From Sandaracinaceae bacterium (GTDB lineage Bacteria; Myxococcota_A; Polyangia; Polyangiales; Sandaracinaceae): DNA of 46,915 nt. Positions within the stretch are counted from its first letter, which is position 1. Every line of letters starts with the position of its first letter. The DNA is taken from positions 1-46,915 of the forward strand of contig JAVJQK010000036.1 in NCBI GenBank assembly GCA_040218145.1, given 5' to 3'. The translations under genes and the position numbers were made by a program. Below are positions 40,114-46,915 of the stretch, in pieces. The notes beneath the pieces were generated by a model, which was not told where the DNA came from, did not search any database, and worked only from the letters and a program-made list of their open reading frames with translations.

Positions 40114-42264
40114 TCAGCGTCGGCCGACGCGGCGGACCTCGAGCACGTCGCGGTGGCGGCCGATGCGATCGATGACCTGCGCGACCTGGTCGGCGCTCCG
40201 GCAGTCGAGGCTCAGGCGAATCGAGGCGGCCTTGCCGCGGTCGCTCTCGGCGCGCGCGCTCTGGATGTTCACGCCGATGGCGGTCACCAGCTTGCTCAGC
40301 TCACCCATCAGCCCCGCGCGGTCGTTCGCCTGGACGAGGATCTCGACCGCGTGCCGCTGCCCGGCGTCTTCGCCCCAGTCGATCTCCACCAGCCGCTCGG
40401 GCTCGGGCGTGCCGAGGATGTTGGGGCAGCGGCGGTGGTGGATCACGACGCCGCGCCCGCGCGTGACGAAGCCGACCACGTCGTCGCCGGGCACGGGGCT
40501 GCAGCAGCGCGCGCGCCGCCCCATGACCTCGTCCGAGCCGTCGATGCGCAGCCCCGACGCGGTCTGCCGCGTGGGCGGCGGGGGCGGCGTGGAGGGGAGC
40601 CGCGGCGGCTCGGGCGGCGCCTTCTCCCGCTCCAGGGTCAGCGCGGCCGAGGAGACCGAGTGCGCGTTGCGGTCGCCGTATCCCACCGCGGCGTAGAGGT
40701 CGTCGGGCGTGGGGTAGTCGAGCGCGGTCGCGATCTCCTCGATCGTCGCGTGCGCGAGATCCAGCCGCGCCAGCTCTCGCTCCACCATCTCCTTGCCGAA
40801 GCGGATCGACTCGCCGCGCCCCTGCTTGCGGAAGAACGCGCGGACCTTGCTGCGCGCGCTCGCCGTCTTCAGGAAGCCGAGGGTCGGGTTCATCCAGTCG
40901 CGGCTCGGCTGCGGCTCCTTGTGGGTCAGGACCTCCACCCGGTCGCCCGTCTTCAGCCCCGTCTCGAGCGGCACGATGCGCCCGTTGATCTTCGCGCCGC
41001 GGCAGCGATGGCCGACCATCGTGTGCACCCGGTAGGCGAAGTCGAGCGGCGTCGCGCCGACCGGCAGGTCGATCACGTCGCCCGCGGGGGTGAAGACGTA
41101 GACCTGGTCCTCGAAGATGTCGGTCTTGAGCGACTCGATGAACTGATGCGGGTCCGAGACCTCGCGCTCCCAGTCCATGAGCTGCCGGAGCAGCATGAAC
41201 TTGTCTTGCGGGCCTTTGCCTCCGCCGCCCTCCTTGTAGGCCCAGTGCGCGGCCACACCGAACTCGGAGAGCTGGTGCATCTGCTCGGTGCGGATCTGCA
41301 CCTCGACCGGCCGGCCGCCGGGGCCGATGACCGCGGTGTGCAGCGACTGGTAGCCGTTGTCCTTGGGCTTGGCGACGTAGTCGTCGAACTCGCTCGGGAT
41401 GGGCACGAAGGTCGAGTGGACCAGGCCGAGGACCCCGTAGCAGTCCTGCAGCCGCTTGGTGATCACGCGGACGGCGCGGAGATCGTAGAGCTGGTCGAAC
41501 TCCAGGTCCTTGCGCTGCATCTTCTTGTAGATGCTGTAGATGTGCTTCGCGCGGCCCTTGATGGAGGCCTCGATGCCCTCCTCCGCGAGCTTCTCCTCGA
41601 GCACCGCGACGACCTGGTCGATGAACGCCTGCCGCTCGTCGCGGCGCTCGGCGAGCAGCCGCTTGATCTCCGCGTAGGTGTCCGGCTCGAGCTCGCGCAG
41701 CGCGAAGTCCTCGAGCTCCCACTTGAGCTGCCAGATCCCGAGCCGGTTCGCGAGCGGGGCGAAGACGTCGAGCGTCTCGCGCGCGTAGCGCTGCCGCTCC
41801 TCCTGGCTCCAGGTCTCCTCGCGGATGGCGCGGATCCGCTGCACCCGCATCGCGAGCACGATCATCACGACGCGCACGTCGCGCGCCATCGCGAGGAACA
41901 TCTCGCGCAGCGTCTCGGCCGCCTCCTCCTCGATGCGGTCCCAGCGGATGCTCGCCAGCCGCTGCACCCCCGCGAGGAGCCGCGCGACGTCCTCGCCGAG
42001 CGCCTCGGTGACCTGCTCGAGGGGCAGCGCGCCCTCGATGAACGCCCGCGCGGTGAGCGACGCGGCAACCGCCGAGGGATCCAGCCGCAGCCGGGCGAGC
42101 ACCTCCGCCGTGTCGAGCGCGTGCTTCACCGCCTCGGGCTCGCGGCCCTCGTAGCGCGCCTGCACCAGCTCGAACGCCCGGCTCACCACCGCCGCGTCGG
42201 CGTCGGGGTGATGTTTGGCCAGGCGGCTGAGGAGGGCCTCCGGCTGCGTCGCGGGTGCGGTCAT
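40114..42264 (-). CDS. relA: RelA-type (p)ppGpp synthetase with degenerate HD domain
   Basis: A 716-residue long RelA/SpoT homologue. At residues about 69-74 the hydrolase signature His-Asp is replaced (SLTARA, Ala72-Arg73), although an earlier His at 48 is kept. Hydrolysis is therefore probably lost, as in E. coli RelA. The synthetase part is intact: IYSIYKKMQRKDLEF, LYDLRAVRVI, KDNGYQSLHTAVIGP and VEVQIRTEQMH. A TGS domain (VYVFTPAGDVIDLPVG), a Cys/His segment with ARCCSPVPGDD, and a C-terminal ACT domain follow. It makes the stringent alarmone (p)ppGpp, usually with the ribosome. Confidence 0.92.
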   Translation of the reverse strand: MTAPATQPEALLSRLAKHHPDADAAVVSRAFELVQARYEGREPEAVKHALDTAEVLARLRLDPSAVAASLTARAFIEGALPLEQVTEALGEDVARLLAGVQRLASIRWDRIEEEAAETLREMFLAMARDVRVVMIVLAMRVQRIRAIREETWSQEERQRYARETLDVFAPLANRLGIWQLKWELEDFALRELEPDTYAEIKRLLAERRDERQAFIDQVVAVLEEKLAEEGIEASIKGRAKHIYSIYKKMQRKDLEFDQLYDLRAVRVITKRLQDCYGVLGLVHSTFVPIPSEFDDYVAKPKDNGYQSLHTAVIGPGGRPVEVQIRTEQMHQLSEFGVAAHWAYKEGGGGKGPQDKFMLLRQLMDWEREVSDPHQFIESLKTDIFEDQVYVFTPAGDVIDLPVGATPLDFAYRVHTMVGHRCRGAKINGRIVPLETGLKTGDRVEVLTHKEPQPSRDWMNPTLGFLKTASARSKVRAFFRKQGRGESIRFGKEMVERELARLDLAHATIEEIATALDYPTPDDLYAAVGYGDRNAHSVSSAALTLEREKAPPEPPRLPSTPPPPPTRQTASGLRIDGSDEVMGRRARCCSPVPGDDVVGFVTRGRGVVIHHRRCPNILGTPEPERLVEIDWGEDAGQRHAVEILVQANDRAGLMGELSKLVTAIGVNIQSARAESDRGKAASIRLSLDCRSADQVAQVIDRIGRHRDVLEVRRVGRR

Positions 42265-45966: not shown

Positions 45967-46680
45967 TCATCGGCGCTCGTCCGGGATGTCGCCGAAGCGC
46001 TCCTCGGCGCAGTCGAGGTGGTGCCAGTGCGTGACGCTCCGGCCCGGTCGGGGCGAGCGCACGCGTCGGCCGTAGCGTAGCTCCCCGTGGGAGATGCGAC
46101 CGCCGCAGACGCGACAGCGCGAGCGGCCGCTCCGGGCGCGCTCCACGAACCCGGGCGCGCCGCCGTCGAGGTCGATGTGATCGGGGGCGGCCCAGTCGGC
46201 GGCGCCGAGGTAGGCCCAGGGGAACGAGCGCTTCTCGGCCGCGTGGTGAAGGAGGAAGGCGCAGGCGCGGCCGTCCTCCAGCCAGGGCGTCACGCGCAGG
46301 CGGCCTCCGTCCGCGGTGATCACCTCGCTGCCGAGCCAGCGGTCGCCGACCCTCGACCAGGTCACGCGCCGCAGGGCGCGCCACGGGACCACCACCCACC
46401 CGGAGCGCGTGCGGGCGTGGAGCGCGTCGCGGTGGAGGCGCACCTCCAGGACGAGGTCGCGGCGCAGCGCGTGCCCGAAGAGCGCCGCCGCCAGACCGCC
46501 GGTGATCACGCCCATGACGAGGGCGCCGAGGGCGCGCACCGGGTCGAAGGGCAAGAGCAGGGCGGCCGCCGCGAGCGGCAGGAGCAGGAAGGCGGCGCAG
46601 CCCACGTCCCGGGCGAGCCGACCCCCTCCGAGCGCGTAGCCCGCGATCGGCCCCTCCTCCCAGTCGCGCTCCTCGCTCAT
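45967..46680 (-). CDS. Membrane protein with C-terminal PARP-type zinc finger
   Basis: A 237-residue protein from ATG. Two transmembrane segments lie at about 26-44 and 49-68. A PH-like or DUF304-like region follows (about 75-160; VLEVRLHRDALHARTRSGW). The C-terminal part (about 178-228) has the PARP-type zinc-finger layout: SGRSRCRVCGGRISHGELR, then THWHHLDC, with Cys189, Cys192, His221 and Cys224. The spacing C-x2-C-x28-H-x2-C equals that of PARP1 finger 1. The membrane link is unusual, since PARP fingers bind DNA breaks in animals. Confidence 0.75.
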   Translation of the reverse strand: MSEERDWEEGPIAGYALGGGRLARDVGCAAFLLLPLAAAALLLPFDPVRALGALVMGVITGGLAAALFGHALRRDLVLEVRLHRDALHARTRSGWVVVPWRALRRVTWSRVGDRWLGSEVITADGGRLRVTPWLEDGRACAFLLHHAAEKRSFPWAYLGAADWAAPDHIDLDGGAPGFVERARSGRSRCRVCGGRISHGELRYGRRVRSPRPGRSVTHWHHLDCAEERFGDIPDERR

Positions 46681-46915
46681 GGTCGTTCAGAGTACGCGGC
46701 GCGCGAGCGGAGCTTCCAGCACCGCTTCTAGGCCCAAATCCAGCGCCTCGTTCCACGATGCGCCTGTACTTGGGGCTAGCAGTGTCCGGCAAAGATGACT
46801 GCGCGCGCCTCGCCGGCGGGACAGCGCGCCCAGCGCGCCAGTCGCTCCTCCGAAATGCTTCAGCATTTCGTCGTCGGCCCGGCGCGCTGGACACGCCGTC
46901 GCGCTCGGCGATGCA
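46681..46915. other. Noncoding region with nested inverted repeats
   Basis: No gene is seen here. The 5' part is the region upstream of the PARP-finger gene and should hold its promoter, but no clear boxes are visible. The 3' part holds nested inverted repeats at 46830-46890. Confidence 0.55.
46830..46890. repeat. Nested inverted repeats
   Basis: Outer arms CCAGCGCGCC (46830-46839) and GGCGCGCTGG (46881-46890) surround an inner stem CGAAATGCT/AGCATTTCG (46851-46870) with a 2-base loop (or 8 bp plus TTCA). No U-tract follows. It could be a repeat-family element or a strong folded RNA. Confidence 0.7.

Follow-up and report, generated by a model that had tools for sequence, protein, structure and literature searches.

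The locus and its neighborhood

The window, meaning the whole 46,915-nucleotide stretch of DNA analyzed, comes from a marine myxobacterium of the Sandaracinaceae and carries close to one end an open reading frame (ORF) for a protein that combines a predicted membrane hairpin with a C-terminal PARP-type zinc finger (Table 1). The ORF has a GC content of 0.945 (94.5%) at third codon positions. Apart from the finger, no Pfam or NCBIfam domain was found in the protein, including any ADP-ribosyltransferase or effector domain.

Genes downstream of the finger gene include one for a RelA/SpoT homologue (40114-42264), along with ORFs that have no annotation. A PADLOC search of the 237-aa protein and two neighbors gave no match to a defense system, and an origin in a mobile element or phage was rejected, as no relative was found in viral contigs, phages, or plasmids. 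On the upstream side, the contig ends 235 bases from the gene, inside a high-copy repeat. This dispersed element of ~140 bases (46775-46915) is partly self-complementary and occurs at no fewer than 40 genomic positions, many of them contig ends. A contig from a second assembly of the same species (locus L050) has a different sequence at the repeat position; the repeat insertion may therefore be polymorphic.

Table 1. Features of the finger gene and its product, with window coordinates
Feature	Coordinates	Strand	Basis
237-aa ORF: membrane hairpin, β domain, and C-terminal PARP-type zinc finger	45967..46680	(-)	ATG start
Predicted TM helix 1, residues 19-42	46555..46626	(-)	hydropathy; helix in model
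Predicted TM helix 2, residues 47-71	46468..46542	(-)	hydropathy; helix in model; charge count
Seven-stranded, possibly PH-like domain, residues 77-146	46243..46452	(-)	low-confidence model strands
PARP-type zinc finger, F1 type, residues 177-229	45994..46152	(-)	PF00645 match; PARP1 Zn1 fold match; F1-type HMM
Zinc ligands C189 and C192	46105..46116	(-)	invariant, 45 aligned sequences
Arginine-rich loop RRVRSPRPGR, residues 205-214, in place of aromatic-containing DNA-stacking loop	46039..46068	(-)	loop comparison
Zinc ligands H221 and C224	46009..46020	(-)	invariant, 45 aligned sequences

Family assignment of the zinc finger

An earlier note on this DNA had recognized a zf-PARP motif within residues 178-228, with flanking SGR and HWxH residues and an LR-x-VxSP-like stretch between them, and that description proved exact. 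The ligand pattern C189-x2-C192-x28-H221-x2-C224 is accompanied by SGR at 184-186, LR..(V).SP at 201-210, and HWHH at 218-221, and V179-A225 aligns without gaps to V11-F57 of PARP1. The profile search proposed in the same note matched zf-PARP (PF00645) with E=1.4e-9 and 39.0 bits by hmmscan, 0.3 under the cut-off of 39.3, and with 41 bits, above the cut-off, in a six-frame genome search; the match spans positions 1-52 of the 87 in the profile. Comparison with PARP1 by phmmer gave E=1.2e-9 when the construct held both fingers and 3e-5 to 5e-5 when it was limited to F1, and a custom HMM built from 48 bacterial first fingers scored the protein at 55.9 bits versus 5.5 bits or less for 2000 shuffles of it. 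Given these scores, the zf-PARP match is not due to chance. Across the aligned bacterial fingers, R186, C189, C192, I196, R202, H221, and C224 are invariant, and E180 is nearly so. The C-terminal domain is thus a true zf-PARP finger, and zinc binding is predicted.

Structure prediction gave a concordant picture. The whole-protein model, built from 45 sequences, had an overall pLDDT of 55, with the finger at 77-93, and superposed on PARP1 Zn1 with a Z of 8.4 and an rmsd of 2.1 over 62 residues. When the finger was modeled alone (pLDDT 85), the top Foldseek hits were exclusively DNA ligase III and PARP1 fingers 1 and 2 (E down to 2.7e-5, TMq 0.76-0.79). The finger-only model likewise matched PARP1 Zn1 at Z 8.4, with unrelated treble-clef folds reaching 5.9 at most. 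The predictor's input alignment consisted of zf-PARP relatives, so the fold match depends in part on the sequence match. Judged by this fold matching, the four ligands probably cluster, contrary to the refuting outcome named in the earlier note.

The finger is of the F1 type, scoring 55.0 bits with the F1-type HMM versus 27.5 with the F2-type HMM, and in each of the 48 double-finger proteins compared it is more similar to the first finger than to the second.

Membrane hairpin and β domain

Two membrane segments had also been claimed, and strong hydropathy at about residues 22-60, in the N-terminal half, agrees with the two helices of the model. The second helix is followed by RRD..R..R, with five K/R in all after it, and these charges fit the positive-inside rule, from which an N-in/C-in topology with a cytosolic finger is predicted. 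A PARP-type finger on a protein predicted to be membrane anchored is supported by concordant profile, sequence, and structure-prediction results and by the presence of the ORF in an independent assembly of the species.

The suggestion of a PH-like region, here placed between hairpin and finger, is weak. Seven strands are predicted, with faint matches to the PH folds of GRK2, Rtt106, and SSRP1/Pob3 (Foldseek probability 0.57-0.72; Z 3.0-3.6); Pfam and hhalign, however, lent it no support. The strands lack a C-terminal helix and have pLDDT values mostly below 50 (about 40-50), the N-terminal half having been modeled from essentially one sequence. No bPH_2 or YcxB match to the 237-aa protein was found in Pfam at E up to 10, and membership in bPH_2 (PF03703) or YcxB (PF14317) was rejected after hhalign comparison with relatives (probability ≤1.4%). 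We describe residues 77-146 as PH-like tentatively.

zf-PARP fingers in other bacteria

Within the phylum, fingers of this family occur in 30 of 377 genomes. Across species genomes, a scan recovered 57 zf-PARP loci from Myxococcota, Planctomycetota, Acidobacteria, Cyanobacteria/Melainabacteria, Beta- and Gammaproteobacteria, Gemmatimonadetes, and others. The bacterial relatives are mostly soluble proteins of ~180 aa with two fingers resembling the F1-F2 pair of PARP1, and some fingers reside on large proteins. No membrane helices were predicted by hydropathy in the ORFs extracted from the other relatives sampled, with one or two loci left aside. The combination with membrane helices, predicted in no other recovered relative, is unusual, as the earlier note held; a PARP finger as such is nothing out of the ordinary in bacteria. 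A literature search on bacterial PARP-type fingers, including the tandem F1-F2 proteins (L051-L106), found no description of them in the library searched.

Two of the two-finger relatives (L082 and L105) have a second finger lacking zinc ligands (CK.SGE, no H..C), which suggests a degenerate F2. Two other loci, L066 and L072, with matches that seemed to extend into the PH-like region, were rejected as relatives of that region; both are two-finger genes in which the upstream match precedes the likely start.

An arginine loop in place of the stacking aromatic

The finger keeps R186, R202, and V216, the counterparts of PARP1 R18, R34, and V48; R34 is a DNA contact. In PARP1, R18 enters the DNA minor groove (PMC4678113). 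F44 stacks on the exposed end of the DNA, and binding to DNA requires it (PMC6953017, PMC4678113). Either F44A or V48A alone renders PARP1 deficient in DNA binding (PMC6953017). Each of the 43 bacterial first fingers in the alignment has F or Y at the F44 position, where the window finger has no aromatic. The window finger's loop, RRVRSPRPGRSVTH, contains five Arg and no aromatic at all; an aromatic is present in all 47 other extracted bacterial F1 loops, which hold between zero and two K/R. Measured against a PARP1-like break reader, the 237-aa protein retains the V48 equivalent, lacks the F44 aromatic, and has a single finger. With the aromatic gone and an arginine loop in its place, PARP1-style break reading is unlikely, and the break-sensing role put forward in the earlier note is not supported. 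That the finger tethers nucleic acid is more likely than that it senses breaks.

We favor, at somewhat short of even confidence, a small inner-membrane protein with a cytosolic nucleic-acid-binding finger, acting as a DNA tether or adaptor without PARP1-style end-stacking. The membrane hairpin would hold the zinc-binding finger in the cytosol close to the inner membrane, where the finger would bind nucleic acid by way of backbone and minor-groove contacts; without end-stacking on breaks, the protein would tether DNA to the membrane or act as its adaptor there. Retention of R186, the five-Arg loop, and the basic character of residues 177-237 (15 K/R versus 8 D/E) speak for this reading, whereas the missing F44 equivalent, the occurrence in one species, and the low-confidence N-terminal half speak against it. 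Binding to DNA or RNA, the tethering function, and whatever part the β domain may play are inferred.

The main rival starts from the same loop. Since F44A or V48A alone impairs PARP1, loss of the aromatic may have abolished DNA binding altogether, and the finger might instead be a zinc-stabilized protein-protein interaction module of a membrane adaptor. The membrane location, which sets this finger apart from the usual soluble two-finger setting, would suit such a role, but the conserved R186, R202, and V216 and the strongly basic loop look more like retained nucleic-acid contact, and we regard an interaction module as rather unlikely.

Lineage restriction of the full-length protein

The full 237-aa protein was found solely in the same species, in the second assembly (Sandaracinaceae bacterium MED-G138, L050), at 99% identity. 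That ORF differs by E3K, P166S, and one silent change, leaving the finger identical; three codon differences between two orthologues are too small a sample for gauging selection. The N-terminal half had no convincing homologue outside the species in 183 genomes of the order, nor did the β domain alone in 289 genomes of the class. Candidates for either part at E >0.001 were rejected, being short and without a recurring architecture, several of them crossing stop codons; the one examined was no comparable protein. The protein presents a known finger family in a new architecture, apparently restricted to one species.

Such a distribution, next to a high-copy dispersed repeat, would also fit a recent lineage-restricted gene in which a stray finger became fused to a membrane anchor and has no settled function. 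An intact ORF with an identical whole finger in two independent assemblies and a coding-like codon composition argue against that origin, which we consider improbable.

A second finger in the same genome

The genome of the window encodes exactly two zf-PARP fingers, on separate proteins and different contigs. The other is the C-terminal finger of a DUF4132 protein (L002, 31-1746), which is of the F2 type (71.2 versus 30.4 bits). In a different genus of the family, two genomes have both fingers in one reading frame. A membrane-anchored break or end sensor, in which the F1-type finger would work in trans with the DUF4132 F2-type finger to rebuild a PARP1-like F1-F2 reader, draws on this one-of-each complement, on the tandem arrangement in relatives, and on the conserved V48 equivalent, but the missing aromatic, the separate contigs, the second assembly (84% complete) with an F1-type finger only, and the want of membrane helices in any other recovered bacterial zf-PARP protein make it a distant contender. 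That the pair, split over the two proteins, reassembles at the membrane on DNA that is broken or incoming is very unlikely.

Comparison with known systems

A finger known from eukaryotic DNA-break repair is here joined to a bacterial membrane anchor, a union unseen in the other recovered relatives. Having lost the end-stacking aromatic, the protein is a natural experiment on the function left to such a finger, and the bacterial tandem F1-F2 proteins, spread over several phyla, bear on the origin of the PARP1 damage reader.

A close counterpart is zinc finger 1 of human PARP1 (PDB 3od8, 4av1, 2n8a, 8g0h), with which the window finger shares its predicted fold (Z ~8), the ungapped alignment, the zinc ligands, and the equivalents of R18, R34, V48, and W51. 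Unlike PARP1, the window protein has no F44 aromatic, second finger, WGR domain, or ADP-ribosyltransferase domain. The DNA ligase III zinc finger (1uw0) has the finger family and predicted fold in common with it but is a weaker match (Z 5.0), and the window protein has no ligase domain. The predicted layout of two membrane helices followed by a β domain recalls the bPH_2 and YcxB membrane proteins, although neither a Pfam match nor profile-profile similarity to relatives of either family accompanies that layout. The DUF4132 protein belongs to the same finger family and the same genome but is large, has an F2-type finger, and has no membrane helices. The ~180-aa double-finger proteins (e.g., L051-L054, L060, and L069) share with the window protein an F1-type finger (~34-52% identity over the finger), including its zinc ligands, arginines, and an HWHH-like motif. 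These soluble relatives carry a pair of fingers, the first of which is N-terminal and in every case has an aromatic in its loop; the window protein, by contrast, has one C-terminal finger, a predicted membrane anchor, and an arginine loop.
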